Assembly (NCBI GenBank): GCA_014859965.1
Contig: JACZKQ010000133.1
Span: forward strand, 1-63,731
Direction: 5' to 3'
Length of the DNA stretch: 63,731 nucleotides
From: Phycisphaerae bacterium
GTDB taxonomy: Bacteria; Planctomycetota; Phycisphaerae; Sedimentisphaerales; Anaerohalosphaeraceae
The translations under genes and the position numbers were made by a program. Each line of letters starts with the position of its first letter. Positions within the stretch are counted from its first letter, which is position 1. Shown one piece after another: positions 22,728 through 42,364 of this stretch. The notes under the pieces were generated by a model. That model worked only from the letters and a program-made list of their open reading frames with translations, was not told the origin of the DNA and made no database searches.

Positions 22728-25700
22728 CTATACCTGCAACATTGCTTCTAGCCGCTCAGCAGCACTTCCTTGGTTTGGCGATTGCATACTACCAGCAAAC
22801 TCCTTCACGTTCTTTCGGATTAGAGCTAGATCTTCAGCTGAAAAACCGACATCATTTGCGCACACTCGAATCATCCTGATCGACTTTCGGCGAACATGCT
22901 CCATACAAATCTTCCTGGCCTTCGGCTTCAGTTGTTCTGCAATAAGATCATGGCCTAACTCCCTACTAACAAGGCTGTAAGTGCCGATAATCCCAAGTCC
23001 CGCTTCCGTCGCAGGACATTTCAGCCATGCCCCAATTATGTCTCTGTAGTGACGCTTTCGAAGGATCCACCGAACACAATCTTCACTAGAATTTTGCCAC
23101 ACATGCCATAAGAACAGATCAAGATGATAAAAATCGACGGCATCCAGCCTTGAATTCAGTTCGTCTAGACGACGCTCAATTTCTCGGCACATCGCGCGCG
23201 CCACGTCAGGCTTTTGTACGCACTCATACCCGATCAACAATCCGGCAATCTCATCTATTTGTGCTTCCGCAACAGCCTTGCCGATAAACGCTTTGCTCAA
23301 AAACTGCTCCTGACCGGCTATCATCCTGTCCTCGCTCAGCCTTCCCGGCAGGCAGGAACATAGGAACGATACAACGTCGTTGTATGTTGCGTTTGCAAAT
23401 ACCTTCTTCAAGTCTATACTGGCTAGATAGCTCTCGGCTTGCTCTAGCATGTCATCGCGCACATCAGCAACGCCTAACCTAACAGCGAGATCTATTGCAC
23501 TTAAACCATGTAAACTTCTTGTTAACTCTTCCAAGCATCGCAGCAACTCTTCTCTATCATCCTCAATCTGCAAATATAGGCCCAGAAAACATGCCAGATC
23601 CCATACTGGTAGTGAATGGCCTTGCGCGAGCATACTCTGGCAGCAGTCAGATCTCAGCAAACCCGCTTGCTTTATTCTCCAATGGAAATGAGGTAGAGAA
23701 CAAAAGACACATGACGCCATGTGGCTCTGCTTGGCTAGATCGCCGAAACTCAACTGTCGAAGATAGTTCAGTAGTTCCGTTCTTACAACGCCTGTACGGC
23801 GAGAGATCAAGAAAAAGGTAAATATGCTGCTAAGTTCAGCCTCGCTCTTACGACTGACTTTTGTCGCCAGACGGAATTGACACCAAAAGGCCAATAGCTG
23901 CTCTCTAGGGACACGCAGATAAAATGCCGCAGATAAAAGCTCGCAAACACATTGCAGGTCGGTTCCATCATCGTTCGCCTTCCCGCCCAGTGTGCCAAAA
24001 TCTAGTTGCCCGCAAAATGTCGCCAGCTTATTCGTAGGAATACCCACTTCATGTGCGAAGATAATAAACATTCGTATGATCAGAGGCTTTTCGCCTTCAT
24101 CACGTGCACGCTTGCCCAGTTCCTCAACATTCACCTTTTCCCAGATGCGCAAATCAACCTCACAAGTATCCCCCATCTCTCGCAGCATCAAACACAAGAA
24201 ACCAAGTCCGAATTGTGAAGCCATCATGCCGAGATTTAAGAAAGCTGTCTCTGCGAAGAACTTCGCCCAAACAGACCGCTTGGCCTTATTCCGTCCTACC
24301 CGTCTGAGGTGCTGGAATAATGCTCTTGCATACATTGCGTGAAGATAACCCGCTTCGTACCAAGATTCAAGTACATCCATTCTGAAACGTTGAACGTCTG
24401 AGGGATCTTGACTCCACCTAGGCACTTTCCTAACGAACTCTCGGACAGCATCGTGTCGGATATCTTTGTCCGCCCACAGGATGTTTTCCAAATGATAATC
24501 AGGAACGCACATAAACAGCTTCAAAAAATTAGCCGGTCGTATTTGCACATAATCGCGCACACATTTACATACATATTCATGTACACTGCTTATTCCTTGA
24601 CGCCCACAATATGCAGCCGCCTTAATGAAATACTTTGCTATACTAGGATGATATACACGAAGCCAGGATACATACAGGCCGGGCTCAGTTTCTTCCGTAC
24701 GCTTTTGAACTAGGCCAACCCTCAGCAAGGCACTTATGTCGTTTGTAATCCACTTTGAATCTACATCAATCTCATATTGCGACAGCGCGGATATTTGTAG
24801 CAATTCCTCGCAATTTGGCCGTTCCTTCAAGTATGTATGGTAAACGTCCTCTAAGACTTCATCTACTTCAATCGCAGATAAAACGACAACCTTTTTAGTT
24901 CTTTGCCATGCACGTACATACAGACGAATAATGTTCAGATCATTTCCACATTTATCCGTTACAATTCCAATGTCACCAATTTTTCGGGGCGATACCTCAA
25001 GAGACCTTATAATTTTAAGTATTGCCTTTGATGTGTATACAAGCTCAAGTACTGCATCTTGATGCCGCATGACATCTAAATAGCTAATAGCAGGTTCTCC
25101 GTCACCATGCCCACTCAAAGTGACGGTTCGGTCGACATTGCGTGAAGTCATCAATACGTGAATATCACCTCTCTTACCTGAGCAAAGCGACGCGTTGATC
25201 TTCCCTGACAGCATGTGCACATTGTCGACGATAACAAGGGCCGTTCGGTCTGAAAGAGTGAGCAACATCTCTGCTTCCGAAAAGGGGCTCTCCCCGGTAG
25301 CATCCCAATAGTACACGCTCCAACCCTGCTGATAGTATTCATATCCCACTGCAAGAGCAAAGGAGGTCTTTCCGCATCCCGGATTGCCAACAACTAGACA
25401 TCGCCAGTTACGTTTTAGCGTCTTGGCAACAGCCTTATGCAAGTTTTCGTCACGATAATACTTCCCTTGTTCAAAATCCAATTGCGATGGATATCGCATA
25501 GGAAGTGGTTCCAGTCTCTTTAAAAGGCCGTGCTCGGGTACTTTGAGCTTGTGGCGATACGACTCAGCGTAACAGTTCTTTTCTGCTCTTTTTTTTGCAT
25601 CATATAGCACCGCCCGCAGATCATCTAAGGAACTTGCATTTGGGTACGCAAAATGACCACCCAAGCTCCTATGAAAAATCAGCTGAATGTAGCGATTCAT

Positions 25701-25973
25701 ATCGCATTCTTTACTGAGATCCGCCAATGAACGGTTCAGCCGCTTCTTCGCTTCTGACAACTTCGTAGTTCTGATTCCGAGGTTGGCTGCGATTTCTTTC
25801 TGCCTCAGAAAAGAGCTCGCGAACTCTGCCGGTTTGAGCATGAATTCGAGCAGTCTCATTTGTTGGTTATCGTTTGGGCTGATATGTTTTTTCAGCAGGG
25901 TCTGAACGGCTGAATCCTGCAAGTAGCAGACAATTGCCTCGTTCTGCTCACGGATTACGCTAATATCCGACAT
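22728..25973 (-). CDS. STAND/NACHT-like NTPase, candidate defence protein, 1081 aa
   Basis: An N-terminal helical region (residues 1-150) contains an HTH-like segment (LRQKEIAANLGIRTTKLSEA). It is followed by a P-loop NTPase with Walker A VVGNPGCGKTS (about 194-204) and Walker B ALVIVDNVH (about 248-256), winged-helix regions and a long helical C-terminus without clear repeats. The layout fits signal-transduction STAND NTPases, many of which act in antiphage immunity. No N-terminal effector such as TIR, nuclease or protease is recognisable. The gene looks AT-richer than its neighbours by eye, which suggests separate transfer. It stands alone with its own promoter (26011-26038). A defence role is inferred. 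Confidence 0.7.
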   Translation of the reverse strand: MSDISVIREQNEAIVCYLQDSAVQTLLKKHISPNDNQQMRLLEFMLKPAEFASSFLRQKEIAANLGIRTTKLSEAKKRLNRSLADLSKECDMNRYIQLIFHRSLGGHFAYPNASSLDDLRAVLYDAKKRAEKNCYAESYRHKLKVPEHGLLKRLEPLPMRYPSQLDFEQGKYYRDENLHKAVAKTLKRNWRCLVVGNPGCGKTSFALAVGYEYYQQGWSVYYWDATGESPFSEAEMLLTLSDRTALVIVDNVHMLSGKINASLCSGKRGDIHVLMTSRNVDRTVTLSGHGDGEPAISYLDVMRHQDAVLELVYTSKAILKIIRSLEVSPRKIGDIGIVTDKCGNDLNIIRLYVRAWQRTKKVVVLSAIEVDEVLEDVYHTYLKERPNCEELLQISALSQYEIDVDSKWITNDISALLRVGLVQKRTEETEPGLYVSWLRVYHPSIAKYFIKAAAYCGRQGISSVHEYVCKCVRDYVQIRPANFLKLFMCVPDYHLENILWADKDIRHDAVREFVRKVPRWSQDPSDVQRFRMDVLESWYEAGYLHAMYARALFQHLRRVGRNKAKRSVWAKFFAETAFLNLGMMASQFGLGFLCLMLREMGDTCEVDLRIWEKVNVEELGKRARDEGEKPLIIRMFIIFAHEVGIPTNKLATFCGQLDFGTLGGKANDDGTDLQCVCELLSAAFYLRVPREQLLAFWCQFRLATKVSRKSEAELSSIFTFFLISRRTGVVRTELLNYLRQLSFGDLAKQSHMASCVFCSLPHFHWRIKQAGLLRSDCCQSMLAQGHSLPVWDLACFLGLYLQIEDDREELLRCLEELTRSLHGLSAIDLAVRLGVADVRDDMLEQAESYLASIDLKKVFANATYNDVVSFLCSCLPGRLSEDRMIAGQEQFLSKAFIGKAVAEAQIDEIAGLLIGYECVQKPDVARAMCREIERRLDELNSRLDAVDFYHLDLFLWHVWQNSSEDCVRWILRKRHYRDIIGAWLKCPATEAGLGIIGTYSLVSRELGHDLIAEQLKPKARKICMEHVRRKSIRMIRVCANDVGFSAEDLALIRKNVKEFAGSMQSPNQGSAAERLEAMLQV

Positions 25974-26471: not shown

Positions 26472-27059
26472 ATGCAGACCACGAAGAACAACGCCCAGGT
26501 ACAGCAGCAGATCGGGAGTCCTGCCCAGTGCCACACGAGCCCCACATTCCCTCCCCTCGAATGCTACCACAACGGGCAGCTAGTCATTTGTACGTTTGAC
26601 GAAGCCAGGGAGCGCATCAGACAGGCAACGCATTGGCAGGTCGTGCCTGCGGACATGTATGGATGGGACGTTGAAGATTTCAAAGGATGGAGCGATGTCT
26701 TAAAGATTGCGGGGAAGAAAGGTTTCCGATTGTCCTTCTATACGCACACCACCGACGGGGCGTATACGATCGACGAGGCGGAGCGAGATCTCAATGGCGG
26801 CAAAGAGCTGTTGCCAAACCTATTTCATGTATATGCAGCTCGCTTTAACCGTATTTTCAAAAACCCTGTCGATGGCCAAGCCTTGCGCGATCGCCGCCTG
26901 TGGCCCTTCTACTACCTCGATGTGCCTGATGGATCGGGGCTAAGAACAAGGCCGTCGTATCGGCTTAATCCTCGTTGGGATGTGTTTGTGGTGGCTTGCA
27001 TCGACCCGAATGCCAAATACGCCGGCCGGCCGCTGCCTTGGTCTCAGCTCATTGCTTAA
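26472..27059 (+). CDS. Hypothetical protein, 195 aa, first gene of the element operon
   Basis: No family is recognised. The protein is soluble, with motifs DMYGWDVEDFKGWSDVLKIA, FRLSFYTHTTDGAYTIDEAE and a Pro/Arg-rich end (RLNPRWDVFVVACIDPNAKY). GGAAAGGAGA precedes the ATG at 26472; an earlier in-frame start lacks a ribosome binding site. It is the first of a set of plus-strand genes that continue to 37.8 kb. The gap to the next start is 118 nt. Confidence 0.65.
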   Translation: MQTTKNNAQVQQQIGSPAQCHTSPTFPPLECYHNGQLVICTFDEARERIRQATHWQVVPADMYGWDVEDFKGWSDVLKIAGKKGFRLSFYTHTTDGAYTIDEAERDLNGGKELLPNLFHVYAARFNRIFKNPVDGQALRDRRLWPFYYLDVPDGSGLRTRPSYRLNPRWDVFVVACIDPNAKYAGRPLPWSQLIA

Positions 27060-27177
27060 GCTCAAGGTAACCCAGTAGCTGTCGTCGCGCGACTATACGG
27101 GAAGTAGCATGTTATCTCCGTAAGTGATGCGAGTGTCCGGCAATGGAAAACATAGCAGAGAACAAAGAAGCAAGGTT

Positions 27178-28257
27178 ATGAACATGTCGCAGAACCCAAT
27201 AACGAACGCTACCACGCCACCGCCGCCGACGGTATCCTGGCCCAACGCCCTCCAGAAGATCGAGGACACCACCATCGTTTCCGACGAGGCCGGCCTGGAT
27301 GATCTGCGGTATGCCGGCGGCAAACGCATCAGCATCGGCGACAGGACGTTCGAACTCGCCGAGAACGCATGGGAGACACTTGCCGGATACAGACTTCTCC
27401 CTCCGAACCTTCTCCCGCAGCTCGGTAGAGGCCTCGGCGGCATGGTGCTCAAGTGCATCACAGATTGTGATCGCAGATCCAAAAACGCTCCCGACCGCCT
27501 CCGCCTTTTCTCGAATGGAAAGAGCCGTATCCTGGCGATCGCGCCGGCCGACATGGTTTACCTGAGCAATGCCGAGACTGTTCAGGCCGTCAAGGAGGCC
27601 ATGCCAGCCGGGATTTCATCTGAGAATCTATTTGTGAGTCTTACGCTTATCCCAACGGCATTCGAACTGCAATGCTACACGGAGCAGATTTCGGTGGCGC
27701 CACGGGTAGGCGACATTCTTTGCGGAGGCATTACCATCCGCCATTCGCAGGCAGGCGTGATACCGACGGCGGTACTTGGCTACATCTATTGGCTGGTGTG
27801 CAAGAACGGCATGACGCAGCGCGTATGCGTCGGCGGCAAGCCCGCCAGAACCAAACGTTGCAAGGCAAATAACTCCAAGGTTCCTATGCTGGATGCCGTT
27901 CTTACCCAGGTTAGCCAGGCCTGGCAACAGCTCGAGAATCGCCTGGCCGGCATTAAGGAACTAGCCGAGCACAGGCTCGAGTACTATGGCTTGCCGGAGG
28001 CTCTCAGAAGGCGATGGTCCATCAATCGGGCGACCGCCGACGAAATCGCCGCCGCCATGCACAATGACGAACTCGGCCGGCCCGAACACTTGACCGAATA
28101 CGACCTGGTCAACGCCCTGTCCCGCGTCGCCACGCATAATAGTACCCTCGCCGCACGTTACCGCTGGCACCTTTCCATGGCGGCAGGCATGTTTGCCCAG
28201 AGGCGCGTCCACCAGTGCCCCACTTGCGGCAGTTGGTACAACGAGACGGCAAATTAG
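27178..28257 (+). CDS. DUF932-like phage/plasmid protein, about 359 aa
   Basis: The order of features (a SISIGDRTFELAENAWETLAGYRLLPPN-like N-terminus, described here without the full run; a central VGDILCGGITIRHSQAG; and a helical C-terminal half) fits the DUF932 family of phage and plasmid proteins, whose function is unknown. The C-terminus ends with CPTCGSWY, a zinc-knuckle-like tail. The start is uncertain between ATG at 27178 and 27184, both after a weak AGG. It lies in the element operon between two unknown genes. The family call rests on recollection of the domain layout. Confidence 0.55.
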   Translation: MNMSQNPITNATTPPPPTVSWPNALQKIEDTTIVSDEAGLDDLRYAGGKRISIGDRTFELAENAWETLAGYRLLPPNLLPQLGRGLGGMVLKCITDCDRRSKNAPDRLRLFSNGKSRILAIAPADMVYLSNAETVQAVKEAMPAGISSENLFVSLTLIPTAFELQCYTEQISVAPRVGDILCGGITIRHSQAGVIPTAVLGYIYWLVCKNGMTQRVCVGGKPARTKRCKANNSKVPMLDAVLTQVSQAWQQLENRLAGIKELAEHRLEYYGLPEALRRRWSINRATADEIAAAMHNDELGRPEHLTEYDLVNALSRVATHNSTLAARYRWHLSMAAGMFAQRRVHQCPTCGSWYNETAN

Positions 28258-28392
28258 GCGCAAGCGATCTGTCATTTACAAATCGCTCAGTGATAACTCA
28301 AGCTCCAAGAAAGTGTGCTCTACTGTAGGTGCGATCGGTCTCCGGGCAGCGGGGACCTGGCAGGCATGAAAAACCTGTAATGGAGAAAGGCA

Positions 28393-28788
28393 ATGGCACG
28401 ACAGAAGAAAGACTTCATCACCATCACCGAACCGCCGCCCCTAAAACGCAGCAAACTCTACCCCGGCCGCATCCTGGCCATTACCCAGGAAAAGAAAGCC
28501 AAACTGATCCGAATTAGACTCGAAAACCTCGATCCTGTCCAGCTCGGCCGTATACACACGGCCCAGCTTTCCTTGGCGGTGTGGCCGGGGAATCGAACCA
28601 GCCAGTTCTTCGCCGCCGCCGGCATCGATACTACCCAACCCGGCGAAAAGATCTCTATCGATGATTGCATCGGGGAGACCGTCGGCATGCGGTTTACGGC
28701 GGAGGAGGACACCGTGGTTACGTTCGAGCCGTTCCAGAACAAACGTCCGCACAGCCACAACGATTCCCAGAAGGAGCAGGGGGACTAA
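28393..28788 (+). CDS. Hypothetical protein, 131 aa
   Basis: The sequence is beta-rich (ILAITQEKKAKLIRIRLEN, TAQLSLAVWPGN, GMRFTAEEDTVVTFEPFQ) with a basic N-terminus and a charged C-terminal tail. An OB-fold or a similar small beta-barrel is possible. I considered a ubiquitin-like partner for the E1-like enzyme downstream, but the fold pattern and the lack of a terminal Gly-Gly argue against it. GAGAAAGG precedes the ATG. It sits in the element operon 30-40 nt before a small membrane protein gene. Confidence 0.6.
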   Translation: MARQKKDFITITEPPPLKRSKLYPGRILAITQEKKAKLIRIRLENLDPVQLGRIHTAQLSLAVWPGNRTSQFFAAAGIDTTQPGEKISIDDCIGETVGMRFTAEEDTVVTFEPFQNKRPHSHNDSQKEQGD

Positions 28789-28818
28789 TCGCTGGGATTG
28801 ATTTCCATATAGAAGGGA

Positions 28819-29001
28819 ATGCTCGTGAAAATGTACGACAACAGCAACCGCCGCGAAATCGTTTTCAAATCACTGCTGCGGGGTTCCCGAACCGCTCTTC
28901 TCGTCGGCGCCGTCATCTTCGTCCTCGTGCTGATCATGCGGCTCATTCTCCCCTTTGTCGTATGGTTGCTGTCCGGATTTTTGACCGCTTTCGGTTCATA
29001 G
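28819..29001 (+). CDS. Small single-pass or hairpin membrane protein, about 60 aa
   Basis: One long hydrophobic stretch (ALLVGAVIFVLVLIMRLILP and onward, residues about 26-56) follows a basic N-terminus, which predicts an inner-membrane protein with the N-terminus in the cytoplasm. The start could be ATG 28819, GTG 28825 or ATG 28831; AAGGGA fits GTG 28825 best. It is the first of three small membrane proteins in this operon and is followed after 11 nt by the zinc-ribbon gene. Confidence 0.6.
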   Translation: MLVKMYDNSNRREIVFKSLLRGSRTALLVGAVIFVLVLIMRLILPFVVWLLSGFLTAFGS

Positions 29002-29012
29002 GAGACTTGATC

Positions 29013-29480
29013 ATGGCTAAGAATAGCTTTTCCCTTGATGACGAAGACAGGATTGACACCGTCATCTACAACGATCGTGGCCAGGAGGAATTACGTGTTG
29101 GGTTTCGCACACGAACAGAGAGGGATGATGACGGCAACGATGTAGACATCGAAGAGGCTGAGAATATCGAGACCGCCGATGGCTCCGTCTGGAATTCCAC
29201 ACTCCCTCGCGTACTCGGGAAAGACGGTTTGCTTAGAGTCTGTGATGATTGCGTAGCTCAATCACGCGGATTTTGGGGGCTGCTTTTCGGCCGCACACGG
29301 CCGCGGATGCGGTATGCGCTTGCGGCCAACATTCGCCGATGCAACTGCGGCAAGAACATCTGCTCACGCCATCTGAGGATTAGCCACATCGACAATCATG
29401 TCCGCTGCCGCTCGTGCCACCGGTGGCACTGGCTGCTGCACCGAGTTTTAATCCCCATCTTCTTCCGCAAGGCCCATTAG
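29013..29480 (+). CDS. Zinc-ribbon protein, 155 aa
   Basis: An acidic N-terminal half (SLDDEDRIDTVIYNDRG, DDDGNDVDIEEAENIE) is followed by a cysteine-rich region: CDDC, then CNCGKNIC, then a CRSCHRWHW motif, suggesting two or three zinc sites like a treble-clef or RING-like ribbon. The last residues (LLHRVLIPIFF) are hydrophobic and may touch the membrane. The frame is open upstream, but GGAG nine bases before ATG 29013 sets the start. In a cluster with an E1-like enzyme a RING-like ribbon is worth noting; that link is only an inference. Confidence 0.65.
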   Translation: MAKNSFSLDDEDRIDTVIYNDRGQEELRVGFRTRTERDDDGNDVDIEEAENIETADGSVWNSTLPRVLGKDGLLRVCDDCVAQSRGFWGLLFGRTRPRMRYALAANIRRCNCGKNICSRHLRISHIDNHVRCRSCHRWHWLLHRVLIPIFFRKAH

Positions 29481-29490
29481 AGGTTTTTGG

Positions 29491-31608
29491 ATGGATCAAT
29501 ATTCAGCACAACTTGAGCGAGCGATCCGGCAATACGTTTTGGATTGGCGGCATCCGGACGAGTTTAAGGGAACTATGCGAAGGCTGGAGCGAGGGACCCT
29601 TTCACCAAGGCAAGCTCGGCGGCGGCTCAAGAAGATCCAGCCCTGGATTGAACAACAAATCCGTGATGGTAATTACCTGCCCATGCCCGCCAGCATAGAG
29701 GATCTTGCGCTGGACATCAAGCCTTTCGATGTGGAACTGGGACATCTCTCGGAGCGTCCAGAAGTTCCGTTCGGCATCCGCTTATATGATGGCACACATC
29801 ATATCCTGATTGCCGGCAAGCCCGGCGCCGGCAAGACAGTGGCACTGAAGGTCTATATGTCGCGGGTCGTTGCGTGGAACGAGACCCACCCTGGGGATCC
29901 TGTCCAATTCATAGTCCTTGATTTCAAACCGGACCTGCCCAACCCCGAGAAGATAATGGGCGACAACTGCGTTCATCTCTCCGTCCATCACCCCGACATA
30001 TTCCGCTTCGCAATCAACGGCCCGCCGGGAGTCCCCCCGCGTGCATGGTCGGCCATGAGTTCGCTCATTCTCGCCAGCCGCTTGGGACTTGTTATCTCTC
30101 GCTCCGTATTGGCAACTGTGTACGACTGGCTCATGGGTGTCCTCAATCCCAATCCTTCCCCGGACAAACCGCTTGTCACACCGAGCCTGCGCCTTATCCT
30201 TAGTGTCCTGACACACAGTCCCATCGACTGTTGGGGCGCGAAGACCGACTATGTCAGGACGCTTATCCAGCAGCTTCATGCCCTGCTGCAGGATGCAGGG
30301 GATTCTATTGCCGCCGAACGCGGCATGGAGGTCAATGAGGATATTCTGAACAAGGGCAAGCACCTCGTCCTCGATATCTCCGACTACAACCCGCCCTACC
30401 TGCGATACATTCTCACGGATCTCATTCTCATGCAGATCCTGCTCTATCGTATTCACAACCACCTCAAGACAAGCCGCACACGAATCTGTGTGGTCATCGA
30501 CGAAGCTGACTTCTTTGCCCAGCAGTCGGCTCAAATGGCCTACCCGGATGGCCTGTCTCCGATCATGATGTGGGCCCGGCTTGCCCGAGAGTACGGAATC
30601 CAATTCGTCATTTCTGTGAGCGCACCGCAGAACCTGGCGCCCTATCTGCTGACAGGAGCGACCTATCTGCTGGCCTTCAACACTGTGGACGGCGAGTCCA
30701 TGTGGCATCTCAAGAACACACTCAGTCTGGAGCGGGGAACCGAACGGCTCTTCCCCCGGCTCAAGGCGGGCCAGTGCATCTATCGTGAAGCACAGGGCCC
30801 CTATCCTTTCCCGATGCTGGCCCAAATGGATTTCATCGAGCCGGACCATTCGTCAAAGAGCAAGCCCTATGATGCCATCCCGTTCCGGCTGGCCCGAGAC
30901 CTTGATGATCTGCCCGAGGTACAGAAGGCACTTCAGGAGCGGATCGCGGAACAAAAGAAGACGACACTCCGGCAAACGCAACGGCGCCAGCAGCATACAC
31001 TGACCGACAACGAGCGTACCTTCCTCGACCGCCTATCTATGAATGAATCAGACCCCGTTCACGTCCACATGGGCAAACTGTCACCGGCTACCCAGAAGAA
31101 CATTCTCAAGAGGCTGGAAAGCCTGGAACTCATTAAGACTCAGCAGGTCCGAACGAGTCGTTCCCCAATACGGTTCGCCGGCCTCACTGATAAGGCGTGG
31201 GACCATGTCAACAAGCCTGTGCCAAAACACCGACTCCGTGGCGATCCCGCACACACCTGCATCACCCGCATCAAGCAGCGCTACGACCTCGATCATGGCG
31301 CAGAGGAATCCACGTGCGAAGCCCAGGTCCCGGGCTCTTCCGGCTTCACGGATGTCCTCAGCGGCCGCAATGGCAAATATTATTGTACCGAGATCGTGAT
31401 CAGCTGTTTCACCAATGTCGTATCACACGCACGGTCCTGTTTCCTGGAATCCAACACCATTCACATGCTCACCTTTGTGACCTGCCTCAAGTCTGACCAT
31501 GACAAGATCCGCGACGCCATCTGTGCAGATACCGAGCTCATGTTCTTCCTCAACCGCATCGACTTCATGACGGTCGATGAACTTCTTAGGGAGGTCTACA
31601 AGAAATGA
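29491..31608 (+). CDS. HerA/FtsK-type ATPase with C-terminal winged helix, 705 aa
   Basis: Residues 1-95 are helical. The ATPase core has Walker A AGKPGAGKT (about 109-117), Walker B RICVVIDEAD (about 332-341) and a sensor-like FVISVSAP, as in DUF87/HerA and VirD4/TraG-type pumps that move DNA or protein. A winged helix follows (LSPATQKNILKRLESLELI, about residues 530-550). The C-terminal 110 residues contain GFTDVLSGRNGKYYCTEIVI, faintly like a PD-(D/E)xK core but without the Lys. The stop overlaps the next start (ATGA, 31605-31608), so translation is coupled. It is probably the motor of the element operon; its substrate is unknown. Confidence 0.8.
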   Translation: MDQYSAQLERAIRQYVLDWRHPDEFKGTMRRLERGTLSPRQARRRLKKIQPWIEQQIRDGNYLPMPASIEDLALDIKPFDVELGHLSERPEVPFGIRLYDGTHHILIAGKPGAGKTVALKVYMSRVVAWNETHPGDPVQFIVLDFKPDLPNPEKIMGDNCVHLSVHHPDIFRFAINGPPGVPPRAWSAMSSLILASRLGLVISRSVLATVYDWLMGVLNPNPSPDKPLVTPSLRLILSVLTHSPIDCWGAKTDYVRTLIQQLHALLQDAGDSIAAERGMEVNEDILNKGKHLVLDISDYNPPYLRYILTDLILMQILLYRIHNHLKTSRTRICVVIDEADFFAQQSAQMAYPDGLSPIMMWARLAREYGIQFVISVSAPQNLAPYLLTGATYLLAFNTVDGESMWHLKNTLSLERGTERLFPRLKAGQCIYREAQGPYPFPMLAQMDFIEPDHSSKSKPYDAIPFRLARDLDDLPEVQKALQERIAEQKKTTLRQTQRRQQHTLTDNERTFLDRLSMNESDPVHVHMGKLSPATQKNILKRLESLELIKTQQVRTSRSPIRFAGLTDKAWDHVNKPVPKHRLRGDPAHTCITRIKQRYDLDHGAEESTCEAQVPGSSGFTDVLSGRNGKYYCTEIVISCFTNVVSHARSCFLESNTIHMLTFVTCLKSDHDKIRDAICADTELMFFLNRIDFMTVDELLREVYKK

Positions 31609-31814
31609 AAGCAATCATGATCGTTGTCTTACTCGTCATCACGTGCGCCGTCATCAACTACATGCGTGCCGGCCACTACTCCGGTCCCCTGCCGCAGGTG
31701 CTGCCGTTTCTGGGCGGCGACAAGATCAGCTTCCACGACCTTAGCGGGCTCGTCTGCATCGGGATCGCAATATGGGGATTGACACGCCTCTTCCGCAACC
31801 ATGACGAAGACTGA
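31605..31814 (+). CDS. Small two-pass membrane protein, 69 aa
   Basis: Two hydrophobic segments (IMIVVLLVITCAVINYM and LSGLVCIGIAIWGLTRLF) flank a short Gly/Pro loop. The start overlaps the ATPase stop by 4 bp and has GGGAGGT in front, and its end abuts the next membrane protein. Together with the neighbouring small protein it may anchor the ATPase or the vWA/FHA protein at the membrane. No family was recognised. Confidence 0.65.
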   Translation: MKAIMIVVLLVITCAVINYMRAGHYSGPLPQVLPFLGGDKISFHDLSGLVCIGIAIWGLTRLFRNHDED

Positions 31815-31839
31815 AAACGCTTTTTTGGAGGGCCCTGCT

Positions 31840-32109
31840 ATGGCTAAACGTCAAATCGAACCTGAAACGAAGCAACCTGAAAATGAACCGCAGTCCCAGC
31901 CGCAACTCCAGCTGCGTCTCAATTGGATTCTCGTGCTGCTTGCACTGGCGGGAGTGTACTACCTGCTGACCCATGTCCAGGTCTCGTTACCCTGGGACCG
32001 CGTGATGGATTTCCTGGATGTGCAGGACCGTGAGCGATATTCCAAGCTCGGCATTTTTTGTGTGGTTTTGACAGCATTTGTCGCACTGACACGAATCCTG
32101 CGCAAGTGA
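31840..32109 (+). CDS. Small two-pass membrane protein, 89 aa
   Basis: A hydrophilic Gln/Glu/Pro-rich N-terminus (KQPENEPQSQPQLQL) is followed by two membrane segments (WILVLLALAGVYYLL and LGIFCVVLTAFVALT) around an amphipathic loop. The ATG at 31840 is preserved by TTGGAGG upstream; an in-frame ATG at 31801 lacks a ribosome binding site and would overlap the previous gene. The topology resembles the 31605-31814 product, with an aromatic loop between segments. Function is unknown. Confidence 0.6.
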   Translation: MAKRQIEPETKQPENEPQSQPQLQLRLNWILVLLALAGVYYLLTHVQVSLPWDRVMDFLDVQDRERYSKLGIFCVVLTAFVALTRILRK

Positions 32110-32229
32110 AGGCCGCATCCAAATGCAATCGTCACGTTGGTCGAAAATCATCGTGATGTAAATCGCCGGAACTCTATAAGAGGTAAAATCAAAGTAACTG
32201 GAAACTACTTAATTGTGAAAGGGTTGATC

Positions 32230-33630
32230 ATGAAAAAGATTGTATTCCTGCTGCTTTTCGTGCTGACGGTCGGCATCAGCAGCGCCGTAACTGAGCCGTT
32301 GGCTGTCACGGTAATCATCGACACTTCGTGGAGCACTGAGCATACGTCAATCGACGATTCGCGATCGTTGGCTCGACAGGTATTCACCGGCCTAAGACCT
32401 GGCGACTACATGGAAATTTTGACAGCCGAGTCAGGCAAACCCAAGCTACACTATGCATTGCCGATCCGGGCCAATCAACAGCAAGAACTAAAAGAGCTGA
32501 ACCCTGTATTGGCTCGGATCAGCTGGAGTTTTTTGGCCGATGCTAAGATTGCCCCTGCCCTGGAAATGGCCTGTACTCGGCTTGCAAAGCAGGAGTGCAC
32601 GCATGCCGCTGTAATCATCTTCAGCGACGGCAAACTTTCTGATAGTGATGCCCAGGAAGTGATAACGCTCGCTGCGAAGTACAAGGCTAAAGGCTGGCAG
32701 TTCTGGCTGACCGGAACCTCTGCAACCAACCGCAAACTCCTCGTCGCAGCGCATCGCGGGCTATTCAATTTCTCCCTGATCAGCGAGGCCAGTCCGATCG
32801 ATTGGCTCAAGCGGCCTGAGCCAGAGAAGAGGGAGGAAACCGAAAGCCCCAAGCCCAGCCTGCCGGCAGTTCAACAGGTACCTATGGAAGCCGAAATGAA
32901 ATCTTCCATGTCCGTCGAGACGTCTATAGACCACAAGGTGCAGATGGAGCGGAGTACCACGATCAAGCCGGCTATCCTCCCGCTGCCAAAGCCGGTCACC
33001 GAGCCCAATGCGGTGAGTGCAGCGCCGGTGATCAAGGAGCCTGCGCAGCCCAAAATCGCTCTTCCACCTGTTGCAAAGGAACCTGTCAAGCCGAAAGTCG
33101 CGCCCGCGCCGCCCAAGCCTCAGAAACCTCGGCGCAGCTGGAGCTGGCTCTGGTGGACACTCGGAGTGCTTGCCTTACTTGCCGCAGTCTTCGGCCTGCT
33201 GAAGGCGTGGGGTATAAGGAATGCCCGAAGCTGGAGCGCTGCTGTCAGGGAGCGGCTCCGCAAGACCAAATCTGATAAGGGCATTTTGATGGCCCGCGCC
33301 AACGGCAGGACGCAGCGCCTCGGTCCAGTCACGCGCTTCCATGCTGCCCATATCGGCCGCGGCGCCGGCAACACGATCCAAATCACCGACGCGGGCGTCG
33401 CCGACAAGCATGCGCGCATCTACCGCAAGGGCGCCGACATCATGCTGCAGAACCTTGCAGGCAAACCCATCAAGGTCAACGGCATCGAACTCAAACAGAA
33501 ACGCACACGGCTGGTATTGCCCTCCACGATCGAATTGGGAGAAAGCGCCAAGGTGACACTGGAACTGCAACTGCCGCCGAGGCCGGCCAAAGAGGTGGAC
33601 AATGAAAAGTCAGAAGAAGAAAAAGCCTGA
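32230..33630 (+). CDS. Membrane protein with vWA domain, TM segment and cytoplasmic FHA domain
   Basis: The 466-aa protein begins with a signal sequence (MKKIVFLLLFVLTVGISSA). A von Willebrand A domain follows with MIDAS residues DTSWS (from residue 31) and IIFSDGKLSD. Next come a Pro/Lys-rich linker, one membrane span (WSWLWWTLGVLALLAAVFGL, about 302-322) and a C-terminal FHA domain (about 360-440; IGRGAGNTIQITDAGVADKH), which binds phosphothreonine peptides. It therefore links an extracytoplasmic adhesion-like domain to phospho-dependent signalling inside. No kinase gene was seen in the operon. ATG 32230 is preferred because it directly begins the signal peptide; an upstream in-frame start would add 31 unlikely residues. 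Confidence 0.85.
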   Translation: MKKIVFLLLFVLTVGISSAVTEPLAVTVIIDTSWSTEHTSIDDSRSLARQVFTGLRPGDYMEILTAESGKPKLHYALPIRANQQQELKELNPVLARISWSFLADAKIAPALEMACTRLAKQECTHAAVIIFSDGKLSDSDAQEVITLAAKYKAKGWQFWLTGTSATNRKLLVAAHRGLFNFSLISEASPIDWLKRPEPEKREETESPKPSLPAVQQVPMEAEMKSSMSVETSIDHKVQMERSTTIKPAILPLPKPVTEPNAVSAAPVIKEPAQPKIALPPVAKEPVKPKVAPAPPKPQKPRRSWSWLWWTLGVLALLAAVFGLLKAWGIRNARSWSAAVRERLRKTKSDKGILMARANGRTQRLGPVTRFHAAHIGRGAGNTIQITDAGVADKHARIYRKGADIMLQNLAGKPIKVNGIELKQKRTRLVLPSTIELGESAKVTLELQLPPRPAKEVDNEKSEEEKA

Positions 33631-33775
33631 TTGGGCGAACGACACTTGTGTCGCCATGGACGCGATTTCCCGGGCGATCCAGACCTCGGCACGTATTACT
33701 CGCAATCACCGCGGCGCCATTGTCCTTGACTTCTCCCGACAGGCCCTTCCCAAAACAAGAGAGGTGAGATCATGA
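33602..33775 (+). CDS. 57-aa basic protein coupled to the tubulin-like gene
   Basis: This short gene overlaps the end of the vWA/FHA gene by 29 nt and the start of the tubulin-like gene by 4 nt (ATGA at 33772). The product starts MKSQKKKKPDWAND and ends with ITRNHRGAIVLDFSRQAL. The tubulin-like protein has a similar stretch near its N-terminus (LDHNHRSVVLDYSAKEI), so the two may share a short binding motif. The double overlap and the motif argue that it is translated. No family is known to me. Confidence 0.6.
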   Translation: MKSQKKKKPDWANDTCVAMDAISRAIQTSARITRNHRGAIVLDFSRQALPKTREVRS

Positions 33776-36579
33776 AGACGCCAGAGAAGATGAAACCCGA
33801 TGCCAACCTTGTGCTCGATGTTAAGCTGGGCACGGCCGGCAAGCATATCGACGCCCGCTACAGATCGGTCTGCAAGGCCGGAGGGATAGAACTGGACCAC
33901 AACCACCGAAGTGTAGTTCTCGATTACTCTGCCAAGGAAATCCACGATCAAGACGGCGGCATGGACCTGGAGTTGGAAGACGTTGCGCCCGATTCGTTCT
34001 TGCCGGCGGTGATTCCTACGGACCGCGAGGCGCTGACCGAGGCCGAAATAATGGGCCTTCTCTGGTCAGTCGATGCCAATTTCCACAGGGAGCCCGGCGC
34101 AATCCGCGAGAATACCGGGGCTGGCGGAAATCCTCGCCATGGCAATACCGTCACATGGCTCAACAAGACGGAACTGGAGCGAAAACTTGGCCAGATGATG
34201 CGGAAGCTCCGTAGCCATCGTATCACAGATGCTGGCAGGTCTACCTGCATGAACGTGCGAATCATCTTCTCCGCCGTCGGCGGCATGGGATCGGGCACTA
34301 TGTATTGGTTCAGCCGCTATGGCGTTCGCAGGTGCGCCCACCAGGATAAGGTTGATTCCAAGATAGTCCTTTCAGTGTTGCTCAGGGGCAACCTGCCCGT
34401 AACGCATCCTGAGAAGGCCCGCATCAATGAAGCTCTGACGTTGATGTATTTGCGCGCGATCTCGACCCGTATGTACGTCTGCCCGGCTACGGGCACCGTC
34501 GTCAGACCGCCCGACCAGATCTACCTGTCGAGTAGTCTCAATAACCACGGCGGGATCGCCACGCTTGACGAATTACTCCTCCACGAGGCCGAGTGCCAGC
34601 ACCGCTGGTACCACACCCCGGCGGGCGCCCTGTGTCGGGCACGCATGTGCGATATGGCCGCAGGTGAGTTCGATGCTTGGCAGGACCCGCTGGCAGGTTG
34701 CACCACATCAACAACAGACATCTCGCTGGACCGGCGGCGTATCCTCACTTTCTGCACCTATGAGGCCACATCGCTTCTCATAGGACAGATCGTAGCCGAC
34801 GGTGACCCCGAGAACGCACTGAAGGCCTCCACGCGGCTCATCCGTACCGCCGGGCTTGTAGAGAATGAAAACGACAGCACGCTTACCGGCAGAATCCTCC
34901 ACCCAGAGGGGATCGGACACGGGAACATCGAGGTTGCGGCTAAGGCCCGCGTCACCGACCAGACGGAAGGACTTCACAACTGGAGGCTGGCCGAGGCCCT
35001 TCTTGAAGCAGTCGACGGCGTTCGCAGCAACGACATTCTCACTAACGACGAGCCCCTGATGCGGGACGAAGCGAAAAGGCTTTACGCAGGTGCCGAGCGC
35101 GCCTTTGATGATTTCATTGACCACGCACTGAAGGGGCCCGGCAGACTGGATGAGGCCTACCGTACCTGCAGTCAGGTCAAGACGGCTGTGGAAGACAGCC
35201 AGGAAGCCCTTTCGACCAAGATCAACTACTTGCAGGACCTGTCTGTACCCCACGAGCAGACCCTTGGGGAGGCCCAGGAGCAGGTGGAGCAAACCCACGG
35301 TTTCTTCCGGCGGCTGCTCAACCATCCGCTGGCTCGCAGACTGGCCAGTTCTATTGAGGAATCGGGCAAAATCCTGATCAGCTACGACCTGCAGCAGCTG
35401 GCCTGCCGTATCGCCGAACAAGAAGTTCTCACCCCCCTGATAAACCACATTGTCAAACAACAGAACTGGCTTACATCCACATTTCACGAATTGCACGAGG
35501 TAGTAAATACCTGCCAGGGCCTGGCCGAGCAGACTGCCGACCGTGCAATCAGCCGAAGCCTCGGCCTGCCGCTGGTCAATCGATCCTACCTGGAGCAATT
35601 CTGGGCTGACCACATCGACGCGGCTGGCGGCAGGACGAAATTTGCCAGGACGCTTTGCGAGCTGTTCCTGAGGGATCACAAGACCTTTGCCGTTTTGACC
35701 CAGCAATCGGGTCAGGAAGGCAACGACCTGTTGCAGGCCTTCTGTATGGGCCTCTTCAGGCCGAAGGTCGACAAGCTCGAGGTGCTGGCTGAGTTTCTGC
35801 GGCTCTATCCGGGCGAGCAGAATGTGAAACGGGTCCTTCAACAGCTCGTCAATCAGTCTGAGGGCCGTGTCCTCACCGAAGGAGAGGTCGACCGGTCGAT
35901 TGTATGGCTCAAGGCCGCCAATGTGCCCTCTGTCGAATATGTAGCATGGGCCAAGACTATTCTTGAGCAGATCGACCGCAAGGCGGGCAAATGGGAGGTA
36001 GCGGTCAACCCGGACCCCGAACGTTTTACACTTATCCAAATGCGTTCGCAGATCTCCGTCACACCATTGATCAAGCGTCTCGGCTTTCGCGACACCCCGG
36101 CGGATTGGAAGCTGCTTATCGAACACGCCGTCGATCCTTTTAGTGCCATCGGCGTCGGCCCCAGGCCCAACCAGCGCCAAGTAAAACGGGTCTTCGCCAA
36201 GGGCATCGCCGCCGGTCTCATCCGCGAGGAAAACGGCGGCGCCTATCTCACTTTGTCCGGCGGCGAGTCCGCGCTTTTGGGCTCCAAGCCGGATGCGGTC
36301 TTGCAGGCCCTCAGAGCGAACTTTAGATGGCTCGTGTATATCGAGTCCACTTTCGGTCACGAGCTTGTGGTACATGAAGAGAAACTTCTTGCTGCCTTGC
36401 AAGACATGGCCACAACAGTGGCCGCTGAAAACGGCTCTGAGCACTTCTACGCCTTGGTTGACAGCAAAGCCATCGAAGAATGCGTTACACAGTGCGGTCT
36501 GCTCATCCCTCGCAGCCGCAGAATCAAATATGCCTTGGATCATGGAGTCTTCCCTGATGACCTGGAACAGATTGCCTAA
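33772..36579 (+). CDS. Tubulin/FtsZ-superfamily protein (Tubulin_2-like), 935 aa
   Basis: The glycine-rich nucleotide-binding T4 signature reads AVGGMGSGT (G170-G175), close to GGGTGSG of tubulins and FtsZ. It is preceded by a strand MNVRIIFS as expected for the Rossmann-like GTPase fold. The N-terminal lead reads VLDVKLGTAGKHI. After the GTPase part (about residues 1-420) there is a long helical region of about 500 residues. This size and layout fit the large bacterial tubulin-like group, not division FtsZ. Related families are known to occur with vWA proteins in predicted membrane-remodelling systems. The gene is coupled to the mini-gene upstream (ATGA) and overlaps the E1-like gene downstream by 23 nt. 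GTPase or filament activity is inferred. Confidence 0.75.
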   Translation: MKTPEKMKPDANLVLDVKLGTAGKHIDARYRSVCKAGGIELDHNHRSVVLDYSAKEIHDQDGGMDLELEDVAPDSFLPAVIPTDREALTEAEIMGLLWSVDANFHREPGAIRENTGAGGNPRHGNTVTWLNKTELERKLGQMMRKLRSHRITDAGRSTCMNVRIIFSAVGGMGSGTMYWFSRYGVRRCAHQDKVDSKIVLSVLLRGNLPVTHPEKARINEALTLMYLRAISTRMYVCPATGTVVRPPDQIYLSSSLNNHGGIATLDELLLHEAECQHRWYHTPAGALCRARMCDMAAGEFDAWQDPLAGCTTSTTDISLDRRRILTFCTYEATSLLIGQIVADGDPENALKASTRLIRTAGLVENENDSTLTGRILHPEGIGHGNIEVAAKARVTDQTEGLHNWRLAEALLEAVDGVRSNDILTNDEPLMRDEAKRLYAGAERAFDDFIDHALKGPGRLDEAYRTCSQVKTAVEDSQEALSTKINYLQDLSVPHEQTLGEAQEQVEQTHGFFRRLLNHPLARRLASSIEESGKILISYDLQQLACRIAEQEVLTPLINHIVKQQNWLTSTFHELHEVVNTCQGLAEQTADRAISRSLGLPLVNRSYLEQFWADHIDAAGGRTKFARTLCELFLRDHKTFAVLTQQSGQEGNDLLQAFCMGLFRPKVDKLEVLAEFLRLYPGEQNVKRVLQQLVNQSEGRVLTEGEVDRSIVWLKAANVPSVEYVAWAKTILEQIDRKAGKWEVAVNPDPERFTLIQMRSQISVTPLIKRLGFRDTPADWKLLIEHAVDPFSAIGVGPRPNQRQVKRVFAKGIAAGLIREENGGAYLTLSGGESALLGSKPDAVLQALRANFRWLVYIESTFGHELVVHEEKLLAALQDMATTVAAENGSEHFYALVDSKAIEECVTQCGLLIPRSRRIKYALDHGVFPDDLEQIA

Positions 36580-37459
36580 TGGCAGGATTATCCGCCAACG
36601 TCCGGACCGTCTGAAACTGCGGTTGCAGGACGTCCCGATTATTCCACTGGAGCATGCGCCGGTTAGTAATAGCCGAAAGCCGCAAGGCGCTTCGCCCGAG
36701 GTCGATTACAGCACCCCGGATTCCGATCCCCGTCGCTTGTATGGCCGCACCGTAACCCTGTTTGGCGCCGGCTCGGTCGGCGGTGGCCTGCTGGAACGGC
36801 TGGCCTCGGCCCCGCTGCGGATTAACCTGATCGACGACAAGAAAGTCGAAAAGAAGCACCTCCAAGGCGCCCGTACCATCTATGAACCAGGCCATGTTGG
36901 CATGTACAAGGTTCATGCGGCTAAGTTGAGGATGCAGCGGGATCACCCTGCCGCCACTGTGATCCCCATGGTCTACAATGTCCGCGAGATACTCACATCC
37001 AAACTCCAGGCTCTCATTGACGAATCGGTCATGGTGGCCATCGCCATCGATGACCCCGAGCAGATCCTGCGGATCAGCGACTTGGCCTACGAACAGGTGG
37101 AACTCATCCAGCCTGGCGTGCATCGCCAAGCCCGCAGCGGTCACGTTGCCATTTCCATGCCCCGTGTGACTGCCTGCCTGCGTTGTACGCTGGGCGTTAC
37201 CGATTCCGAGCCGATAAGGCGGCTGGACAGCGAAGCCGGCAACAGTGTCGACATCGGCACGGTGACCCAGCATGCTAGCGGTATCGCCATGGAGATCATC
37301 TACAGCAAGGTCATGGGGCGCAGGATCACCCGTTGGGACACATCCAAGAACCTGCTGTTTATCACCAACCAACGGGACGACGCATACAGCCCGGATGGTC
37401 CGGGACTGAGTTGGGACAGCGGCCGGAAACGGTCCGGCTGCACTATCTGCAACCCCTGA
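36557..37459 (+). CDS. ThiF/MoeB/E1-like adenylyltransferase, 300 aa
   Basis: The core has a nucleotide-binding VTLFGAGSVGGGLLERLA (about residues 66-83), a following INLIDDKKVEKKHLQGA strand and a GMYKVHAAKLRM helix, as in ThiF-fold enzymes that adenylate ubiquitin-like or sulphur-carrier proteins. CLRC (207-210) and CTIC (295-298) provide the four zinc ligands of the family. The start at ATG 36557 has GGAG 9 nt upstream, giving a 23-nt overlap with the tubulin-like gene. The longer open frame upstream is a shadow of that gene. No ubiquitin-like gene is visible nearby, so the acceptor is unknown. Whether the catalytic Cys is present cannot be settled by eye. Confidence 0.8.
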   Translation: MTWNRLPNGRIIRQRPDRLKLRLQDVPIIPLEHAPVSNSRKPQGASPEVDYSTPDSDPRRLYGRTVTLFGAGSVGGGLLERLASAPLRINLIDDKKVEKKHLQGARTIYEPGHVGMYKVHAAKLRMQRDHPAATVIPMVYNVREILTSKLQALIDESVMVAIAIDDPEQILRISDLAYEQVELIQPGVHRQARSGHVAISMPRVTACLRCTLGVTDSEPIRRLDSEAGNSVDIGTVTQHASGIAMEIIYSKVMGRRITRWDTSKNLLFITNQRDDAYSPDGPGLSWDSGRKRSGCTICNP

Positions 37460-37482
37460 TAGCTCACGAAAGGAGGTGAATC

Positions 37483-37803
37483 ATGTCTACAGCAAGTATC
37501 GTTACCGTCCGAAGGAGGGATCGCTTTCAAAGCACTGGACTGATGCAACGAAACGCCCCGGCATCCGGACTGGCGCTCCAGGCGCTCGTGCAGGCCATCG
37601 TCCAGCTGAACCAGAAAGTCGATTCCCTGGCTCAGACTCATTCCTTGCCGACGCTGTTTCAACAGCCACAAGAGTTCGCACCGACGAGTCTGAGTCAACT
37701 GTCAGCAGCTGTACATCCTCAGGAGCAAATCACGCCGCCGGCTAACCCGCCGCAACGGCAGGCTCGCGTCAATCGCAGTAAGCTGCTGGACTTCTTTGAC
37801 TGA
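37483..37803 (+). CDS. Hypothetical protein, 106 aa, last gene of the E1 operon
   Basis: A strong AAAGGAGGTGAATC precedes ATG 37483. The product is a Gln-rich helix (LALQALVQAIVQLNQKVDSL) that could be a coiled coil, flanked by a basic start and a Pro/Gln-rich tail ending KLLDFFD. It follows the E1-like gene by 23 nt and is followed by a terminator, so it closes the operon. It does not look like a ubiquitin-like protein and has no C-terminal Gly-Gly. Function is unknown. Confidence 0.65.
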   Translation: MSTASIVTVRRRDRFQSTGLMQRNAPASGLALQALVQAIVQLNQKVDSLAQTHSLPTLFQQPQEFAPTSLSQLSAAVHPQEQITPPANPPQRQARVNRSKLLDFFD

Positions 37804-37866: not shown

Positions 37867-38289
37867 ATGCACAGAAACACATTAAGCCCATTCTTCATGC
37901 GCAATCTGTTTGTAGCGACTGCATGCATTTTCTTGCTGACAGGTGCAGTTTTGAAGCCGCAGGTCTTCTTGTTCTTCCTGTCGCGAGCCGACTCGATCCG
38001 TATGGGGATCATGGTGATCTTGGCATTCTTCTCAGCCATTCAACTCAATATAGCTTTTGGGCACTTGAGTGACGGCCCGGGCAGACCGTGGTACATTTCG
38101 TTGAACGGTATAACAGCCGCTGCGCTTGGGGCCTGGGTCTTCATATCGATGTTCTATTTCATCGATTGTGCCACGCATTACATCCTGGATGTTCCGGAAC
38201 TTTTCACGCATAAGGCAGATCTCCTCCTGCTTCTCGGCGCCACACTCTTGTTCACGTTCCGTCTCAATTGGCTTTCCAAACGACCTTGA
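37867..38289 (+). CDS. Four-pass membrane protein, 140 aa
   Basis: Four hydrophobic segments are visible: LFVATACIFLLTGAVL, MGIMVILAFFSAIQLNIAF, ITAAALGAWVFISMFYFI and LLLLLGATLLFTF. No family is recognised. It starts 23 nt after the operon terminator with AAACAGGAGAG in front, so it may depend on read-through or its own promoter. Its position between the E1 operon and the small element gene suggests an element function, but this is unproven. Confidence 0.65.
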   Translation: MHRNTLSPFFMRNLFVATACIFLLTGAVLKPQVFLFFLSRADSIRMGIMVILAFFSAIQLNIAFGHLSDGPGRPWYISLNGITAAALGAWVFISMFYFIDCATHYILDVPELFTHKADLLLLLGATLLFTFRLNWLSKRP

Positions 38290-38318: not shown

Positions 38319-38585
38319 ATGGCAACCAACACCAAACCCATCAAATCGTTCCGCAGCGGCAACATCGAAGCGAGCATCTGGAAGGATGAGCAGCGCCAGC
38401 AAGGCGGCAATTCCCGCACCAGATACTCGGTACGAATCCACAAGCAGTTCAAAAACAAGCGGGACCAGTACGAGACCACGGATTACTTCTGGCCGGACGA
38501 ACTGCCGAGGCTTTGCCTCGTTGCCAAGAAGGCCTACGAGTTCATCGCGCTGAAGGAGAGCAGGGAAGAGGCCGTTCCTGTCTGA
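38319..38585 (+). CDS. Small mobile-element family protein, 88 aa (paralogue of 22253-22537)
   Basis: SFRSGNIEASIWKDE, then RIHKQFKNKRDQYETTDYF, then a helix LCLVAKKAYEFIALKE, shows the same layout as the protein at 22253-22537. The family is widespread in plasmids, phages and integrative elements, from memory, often near ArdC-like genes, as here. TAGGAG lies 10 nt before the ATG. A bidirectional terminator separates it from the convergent ardC-like gene. Confidence 0.65.
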   Translation: MATNTKPIKSFRSGNIEASIWKDEQRQQGGNSRTRYSVRIHKQFKNKRDQYETTDYFWPDELPRLCLVAKKAYEFIALKESREEAVPV

Positions 38586-38608: not shown

Positions 38609-38637
38609 AAAAGCCCGCCCCACCGGCGGGCTTTTTT
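38609..38637. terminator. Bidirectional terminator between convergent genes
   Basis: AAAAGCCCGCC, loop CCACC, GGCGGGCTTTTTT (38609-38637). The T-run serves the plus strand (gene ending 38585) and the A-run the minus strand (gene ending 38636). Confidence 0.85.
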
Positions 38638-39642: not shown

Positions 39643-39782
39643 CACTCCGCTGATAACCGTCGCATCATTCAAAACCCACACAGTTATGCATGGATCTGTC
39701 ATTACCAAAGAAGCCTGTTCCGAGAAAGAGCTCTTATACTGTATGTAGAGCGACATACGAAATGCTCGCAGGAGCAGACGAA

Positions 39783-42062: not shown

Positions 42063-42364
42063 ACGAGCCTACAGATAAGGATGAGGTAGCAGGCCAGAAG
42101 CCCAAGGCTGGTGAGCAGTTGCTCACCCCCGACGACGTCGCTGCCCAGTTGCAGGTAACATCCGAACAGGTGCGCAGTCTGATACGAAGACGGCAACTTG
42201 CCGCCATCAACATTAGTGTCGGCAAGAAACGGCCGCTATACCGAATCACGCCAAAAGCACTGGCGGGCTTCCTGGACCAAAGATGCCAACCCTCCGGTTC
42301 GGCCCAGTCCCGGCACTTCAGGCGACCTGATCCGACTCCCGATTTCTTTCCTGACCTGAGGTAA
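42056..42364 (+). CDS. Excisionase-like helix-turn-helix protein, about 102 aa
   Basis: LLTPDDVAAQLQVTSEQVRS and LIRRRQLAAINISVGKKRPL form a MerR/HTH_17-type winged helix, as in excisionases that direct tyrosine recombinases. The start overlaps the stop of the reductase gene; ATG 42038 is an alternative to 42056, and neither has a good ribosome binding site, so coupling is likely. Its 3' end overlaps the convergent integrase gene by 47 bp, a common int/xis layout. A role as recombination directionality factor is inferred. Confidence 0.7.
   Translation, partial: RIDEPTDKDEVAGQKPKAGEQLLTPDDVAAQLQVTSEQVRSLIRRRQLAAINISVGKKRPLYRITPKALAGFLDQRCQPSGSAQSRHFRRPDPTPDFFPDLR

Follow-up and report, generated by a model that had tools for sequence, protein, structure and literature searches.

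What does a mobile element gain from an operon in which a HerA-type ATPase is encoded together with a von Willebrand factor A (vWA) protein, a tubulin-like protein and an E1-like enzyme, and do these genes belong together? We addressed these questions for such an operon on an integrative element of a Phycisphaerae bacterium (GenBank assembly GCA_014859965.1, contig JACZKQ010000133.1, positions 1 to 63,731; the window hereafter means this whole stretch of 63,731 nucleotides). An earlier note, made from the sequence alone, had suggested an element-encoded transfer, conflict or membrane-remodelling machine. The comparison of related loci reported here places the operon in a larger family in which a constant core of ATPase, zinc protein and membrane proteins, located next to recombinase and tRNA genes, is combined with interchangeable modules.

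A constant core with interchangeable modules

The same-strand (+) operon spans about 26.4-38.6 kb of the window, and its core and module genes occupy 28819-37459. All genes that the earlier note had named were recovered by open reading frame (ORF) and Pfam analysis, and a tyrosine integrase gene (42318-43457, reverse strand) adjoins a tRNA-Val gene that is the probable integration target (43573-43646, reverse strand). The central gene (29491-31608) encodes an ATPase of the HerA/FtsK superfamily, as the note had held: Pfam returned AAA_22 (2.4e-6), FtsK (1.2e-4) and DUF87 (2.9e-4), a PADLOC scan returned mad8 (3.5e-13) and HerA (8.9e-9), and HerA-type chains were found in a PDB sequence search (4e-4). 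Walker A (GKPGAGKT) and Walker B (VVIDEA) motifs are present. A restriction-endonuclease-like region, assigned from its motif and the neighbouring ORFs, is fused to the C terminus of the window ATPase and forms a separate gene (NUC) in most relatives. Upstream of the ATPase lie TM1, a 60-residue protein with a single transmembrane (TM) segment (28819-29001), and the zinc protein, D (29013-29480), in which the ligands CxxC, CxC/CxxC, CxxH and CxxC form a binuclear, treble-clef-like pattern followed by a hydrophobic/basic C-terminal tail. TM1, which the note had missed, was assigned in this copy by position and topology only; in many other loci TM1 is recognisable at the corresponding place. Downstream lie the small membrane proteins F (69 residues, 31605-31814) and G (102 residues, 31801-32109), the latter at the position that we call TM2.

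With an ATPase profile built from three sequences, 24 of 392 phylum genomes gave relatives; with one built from eight, 58 of 298 class genomes did (E<1e-8). We retrieved twenty loci and annotated them on the basis of similarity with cassette genes already identified. When the ORFs were clustered, the ATPase was present in 23/23 loci, the zinc protein in 18, TM2 in 17 and HSP70 in 13, with integrase and vWA genes also recurrent. The order TM1, zinc protein, ATPase, NUC, TM2, module, recombinase is nearly invariant in about 25 loci on tRNA-linked mobile elements of Planctomycetota, and a recombinase gene lies downstream in all 21 core loci with enough contig. The module slot is filled in four ways. 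It can hold GrpE-HSP70-vWA, as in L111, where HSP70, vWA and GrpE are near the ATPase, or TerY-PP2C-kinase, as in L117 (ATPase-NUC-TM2-TerY-PP2C-kinase-integrase); L118 has the ATPase with ThiF, a TerY-type vWA protein and PP2C. It can also hold an E1 with E2, JAB and ubiquitin-like (Ubl) proteins, as in L112 (an integrase adjoining genes for TM2, an E2-like protein, JAB, E1, TM1, the zinc protein, the ATPase and NUC) and L120 (zinc-ATPase-TM-Ubl/E2-like-JAB/E1), or the vWA/FHA-tubulin-E1 set of the window. Assignments of JAB, E1, TerY and DnaK were backed by searches, those of E2 and Ubl were made by eye.

In a maximum-likelihood tree of 25 ATPases, the module type changes 9 times, against a minimum possible of 5. 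Well-supported sister pairs join a TerY-type with an HSP70-type locus (L117 and L152, 96/84), an E1-type with a tubulin-type locus (L165 and G435, 97/94) and an E1-type with an HSP70-type locus (L120 and L170). Since the module type changes so often on the ATPase tree, the simplest reading of these sequences is that modules have been swapped between cores. Because the ATPase, zinc and TM proteins form a constant core and the tubulin-vWA-E1 set is one swappable module among others, the explanation of the operon moves towards a pump for DNA whose switch can be exchanged. At one locus (L169, 2557-3701) the ATPase gene is truncated by the serine recombinase gene that comes straight after it, which points to an insertion or a recombination event at the cassette.

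The tubulin version and its mobile elements

Tubulin searches covered 59 relatives, the 392 phylum genomes and the 298 class genomes, and gave two true relatives. One is G435:C121 (CAIUPP010000121.1), from an uncultured planctomycete of another class (E 9e-31); the other is G481:C29, from the same class as the window (E 7e-103 with a two-sequence profile). Both keep the gene order ATPase-small TM-vWA/FHA-tubulin-ThiF, at about 20-32% protein identity to the window, so the genes of the set co-occur in other elements. G481 additionally matches the zinc protein (tblastn, 1.8e-9), both small TM proteins (F by the gene at 131269-131586, G at 5.1e-6), a 90-residue protein (N) and ArdC. In G435 a zinc protein shows the same ligand pattern (40086-40538; weak Pfam Siva match, 0.0019) and a protein stands at the TM2 position; upstream lie ParB and a DUF932-like gene that shares its PHROG (phrog_1362) with the window gene at 27178-28257 (+). 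Because the genes recur collinearly in two other genomes at such low identity, the tubulin version is, judged by its sequences, a conserved unit that is rare but old and coherent. In the ATPase tree the window and G481 versions group together and G435 stands apart. Tubulin searches of plasmids and phages and ATPase searches of plasmids gave no match, nor did scans of IMG/VR. A further tubulin match, in G304, was spurious, and of 14 matches in a ThiF-motif scan of genome contigs G435 was the only true relative, L032 being a MoeB-like gene.

The tubulin-like assignment in the note is also supported by comparison of sequence profiles. The protein encoded at 33772-36579 matches Tubulin_2 in Pfam at 3.8e-6, with 26.8 bits against a cut-off of 27 (27 when scanned with its neighbours). 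When the three-sequence cassette tubulin family was compared by hhalign with 13 chromosomal planctomycete Tubulin_2 proteins, the profiles aligned over 684 columns (98.9%, E 1.2e-17) that take in the central and C-terminal parts. These alignments support membership of the cassette tubulins in the FtsZl1 family by descent. An AlphaFold2 prediction from the single sequence had a predicted local distance difference test score of 32, too low to inform on the fold. The preceding module gene (32230-33630) encodes a protein with vWA (1.8e-5) and FHA (1.8e-6) domains in Pfam, in which an N-terminal signal-like segment and one TM segment (about residues 303-325), both recognised by reading the sequence, predict a vWA domain outside and an FHA domain inside; by phmmer it finds its counterparts in G481 (9.5e-51) and G435 (1.3e-26). 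The FHA domain also matches the model of the cytoplasmic FHA domain of YscD-type type III secretion proteins (2.4e-5). The last module gene (36557-37459) encodes the E1-like adenylyltransferase (ThiF, 1.6e-14), in line with the note. Its residues D93, R106, K118 and D165, whose ATP-site roles we assume from MoeB/ThiF, and two CxxC motifs are kept in all three copies.

Four gene overlaps had been pointed out before, and all are real: 4 bp between the ATPase gene and 31605, 29 bp at 33602/33630, 4 bp at 33772/33775 and 23 bp at 36557/36579. A fifth, of 14 bp at 31801/31814, had been overlooked. Two of them depend on a 57-residue ORF (33602-33775) that has no counterpart in G435 or G481 and may not be a gene; we dropped it as a candidate ubiquitin-like partner, as it lacks both conservation and a GG end. 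In the G481:C29 copy, the ATPase frame (131583-134381, reverse strand; 932 codons) continues upstream without a stop, across the zinc gene and as far as a segment resembling TM1, which may be coincidence.

The end proposed for the locus, 37803, is somewhat early. Beyond the E1 gene, a 106-residue protein (37483-37803) and a 140-residue multi-TM protein (37867-38289) have no match in the relatives. Protein N (38319-38585; 52% identity to G481, also in L115, L170 and L171) and the ArdC-like antirestriction protein (38636-39475, reverse strand; Pfam ArdcN 2.3e-11, 53.5% identity in G481) accompany the cassette in G481 too. They are followed by a ribonucleotide reductase gene (39690-42062, +), recognised by its barrel and TSCPD domains and probably of class II. 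The G481:C29 element likewise has a reductase gene (120357-123701), of a different class: by eye it is NrdD-like and is accompanied by genes resembling NrdG and dCTP deaminase. A single family of Orc1/Cdc6-like AAA proteins is represented near the cassette loci, at G435:C121 25844-26929, G481:C29 144559-145659, L115 13054-14163 and L120 3252-4346. Upstream, on the opposite strand, a STAND NTPase gene (22728-25973) coincides with a region of low GC at 22-26 kb and has a homolog at the matching place in the G481:C21 element (1.8e-91). The STAND NTPase gene is conserved in place on an HSP70-type element (L154, 7129-4790, reverse strand), and the same place in G481:C29 and G435 is taken by unrelated NACHT/STAND-like genes.

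Transfer RNA genes lie near the integrase in many sister loci. The end of the tRNA-Glu gene in G481:C21 is repeated as a 22-bp copy 57 kb away, which bounds an element of about 57 kb. A 45-bp tRNA-Arg repeat in G557 was not relied on as an element border, as it would enclose 68 kb including genes like those of type II secretion systems. No relaxase or type IV secretion system (T4SS) family was found among the window-element proteins scanned, and none in the G481:C21 element, where 39 proteins gave matches to 22 Pfam families. That element, which carries an HSP70-type cassette, also has an operon of a Ubl-like protein, an E2-like protein with many zinc-knuckle repeats, JAB and E1 (L179, 8729-11429), the Ubl and JAB of which have close homologs in L188 (G674). 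A second, different HerA-type ATPase is encoded on several cassette contigs (L179 17567-19531, L153 1599-3890, L183, L186, L188, L163, L003 and L120).

Possible functions of the cassette

We propose, and on balance think probable, that the cassette is a membrane-anchored DNA-translocating machine governed by an exchangeable NTP- or modification-dependent switch. The zinc protein and the small TM proteins would anchor the HerA-type ATPase, probably a hexameric DNA pump, at the inner membrane; the restriction-endonuclease-like region of the ATPase would bind or cut DNA, and the module would control assembly or firing of the constant core. In the window version, the vWA-TM-FHA protein would span the membrane as an outside-to-inside link, the tubulin-like protein would serve as a cytoplasmic scaffold and the E1-like enzyme would adenylate the C terminus of some protein or peptide. 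Sister elements would fill the same slot with GrpE-HSP70-vWA, TerY-PP2C-kinase, or E1 with E2/JAB/Ubl. Complex formation, membrane anchoring, DNA pumping and control of the core by the module are what we infer from the conserved gene set. Equivalence of the modules is supported because three of the four types are also alternatives around GAP1-N2 GTPases.

Several observations weigh against this proposal. The T1 loop of the tubulin-like proteins (GxGGxG; GLGGTG in typical chromosomal copies) is degenerate in the three cassette copies (LGTAGK, LGSEGI and MGTTAI), so that GTP binding, and with it GTP-dependent polymerisation, is doubtful although a T4-like loop is kept (GGMGSG in the window, GGFGGG and GGTGGS in the relatives). 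The DxSxS motif of the metal-ion-dependent adhesion site is complete in the window vWA copy only. Of the residues expected for phosphothreonine binding by the FHA domain, no copy has the usual SxxH serine and two lack the GR arginine; because of these losses and the YscD-type match, the FHA domain may be structural rather than phosphopeptide-reading. Parts of the switch may therefore be structural or inactive. Beside the window E1, neither Pfam/NCBIfam profiles nor a C-terminal GG revealed a Ubl, E2 or JAB protein among the window proteins. The restriction-endonuclease-like region has no significant profile match and lacks the canonical ExK, with ExE in most copies. The three tubulin-version ATPases are divergent and long-branched and are not monophyletic, and their deep placement is unsure. 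Finally, no attachment-site repeat was found for the window element or G481:C29, and the ends of the window element were not located.

Two of the three functions suggested in the note, transfer and conflict, overlap with a core governed by a switch and are not exclusive of it. In the case of conflict, the module would sense a phage or competing element, the HerA-nuclease core would degrade or expel its DNA, and the cassette would be cargo of integrative elements, as many defence systems are. This is a serious possibility that we judge to fall somewhat short of probable. Each type of module has a known or predicted role in conflict (TerY-P triads and STK-OB, PMC11090510; Ubl/E1/E2/JAB; HSP70 with GrpE and tubulin with vWA, PMC7159879), the family ATPases match PADLOC mad8 at 1e-13 to 1e-18, and the window element and G481:C21 share the upstream STAND NTPase. 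The link to mad8 is profile similarity only, however, and no complete known defence system is present. The recombinase directly downstream in every locus with room is also what a backbone module would show, unlike random cargo, and ArdC in two elements hints at DNA entry functions. Integrase adjacency, nearby tRNAs and ArdC instead favour a transfer apparatus of the element, in which a TraB-like single FtsK-type pump with Spd-like membrane proteins would move double-stranded DNA without relaxase or T4SS; the membrane proteins flanking the pump and the ~57-kb element with neither family among its Pfam matches fit as well. We regard transfer as a tentative candidate, given that kinase, chaperone and ubiquitin-like modules have no precedent known to us in TraB/Spd elements and that the second HerA ATPase on many contigs could be the pump.

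Membrane remodelling or vesicle formation of the FtsZl1/vWA type, with the ATPase as an accessory, now appears improbable. The pairing of Tubulin_2 with vWA is that described for FtsZl1 operons (PMC2875224), and chromosomal planctomycete Tubulin_2 genes also adjoin secreted vWA genes; but the ATPase core occurs in many elements without tubulin, which makes the tubulin the accessory, and there is no GTPase, OmpA or MCE-type partner at the window locus. A TubZ- or PRTRC-like partition or replication module, to which the ParB upstream in G435 and the union of ThiF with a filament-forming protein in PRTRC systems might point, is very improbable: the window ThiF has no match to the PRTRC ThiF model TIGR03736, a secreted vWA domain does not fit, and neither the window element nor the surroundings of the G481 cassette showed a ParB. 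A bolder form of our proposal is that the cassettes mark a novel, relaxase-free class of planctomycete integrative elements. In these, a membrane-anchored HerA-zinc-nuclease pump would be gated by exchangeable eukaryote-like switches (a tubulin scaffold activated through E1, HSP70, a kinase or ubiquitin-like conjugation), and a tubulin-like filament and protein modification would directly control DNA movement across the membrane; this we consider rather unlikely.

Comparison with known systems

The operons in which FtsZl1 and vWA partners were described, with membrane remodelling proposed as their function (Makarova and Koonin 2010, PMC2875224), resemble the window cassette in having Tubulin_2 beside a membrane or secreted vWA protein and in overall protein layout over the 684 aligned columns. 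Unlike them, the cassette lies on an integrative element with a HerA ATPase, a zinc protein and an E1, its vWA protein carries FHA instead of the PKD repeats found beside chromosomal planctomycete Tubulin_2, and its tubulins are very divergent, with the degenerate T1 loop. Closer in logic are the GAP1-N2 GTPase systems, which have three non-overlapping alternatives, tubulin with vWA, HSP70 with GrpE, and a kinase (Kaur et al. 2020, PMC7159879). The same three recur here, with E1/E2/JAB as an additional one in the planctomycete cassettes, but the core there is a GTPase and here a HerA ATPase with zinc and TM proteins on integrative elements. TerY-P triads and extended Type III-A CoCoNuTs unite TerY vWA, PP2C, kinase, Hsp70-like proteins, FtsK/HerA ATPases and restriction-endonuclease-like partners, and a conjugation as opposed to a secretion or defence role was left open by the authors for the HerA-type ATPase (PMC11090510). 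The planctomycete cassettes differ in having no McrBC GTPase, a constant TM-zinc-HerA-NUC-TM core and a link to integrases.

The resemblance to MADS is confined to the mad8 ATPase domain (PDLC04140, 3.5e-13); the other mad genes were undetected in the window proteins scanned. PRTRC systems, which are also found on mobile elements, pair a filament-forming NTPase with an E1 of ThiF type. The window has a tubulin rather than a ParM-type actin, a ThiF outside TIGR03736, and no E2, JAB or Ubl found. Actinomycete integrative and conjugative elements of the TraB/Spd type are alike in tRNA integration, a single FtsK/HerA-class pump, small TM proteins and no T4SS seen; the cassette ATPase is of another family, its zinc protein, NUC and switch modules set it apart, and a transfer role for the cassette would be an analogy.

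No description of the core or of its tubulin/E1 version was found in the literature searched, whose scope left out most subscription papers. Taken together, these comparisons would add the cassettes to the GAP1-N2 systems as another, independent instance in which such modules are functionally interchangeable, and would unite tubulin-like, HSP70, kinase and ubiquitin-like modules around one constant DNA-pump core on mobile elements. Swapping modules offers a direct test of the long-standing prediction on vWA/tubulin and E1-like operons, and Planctomycetota, in which both transfer and defence are poorly known, gain a candidate machine for one or the other. The core and its mobile setting are apparently new, and the cassettes kin to known NTP-switch systems.

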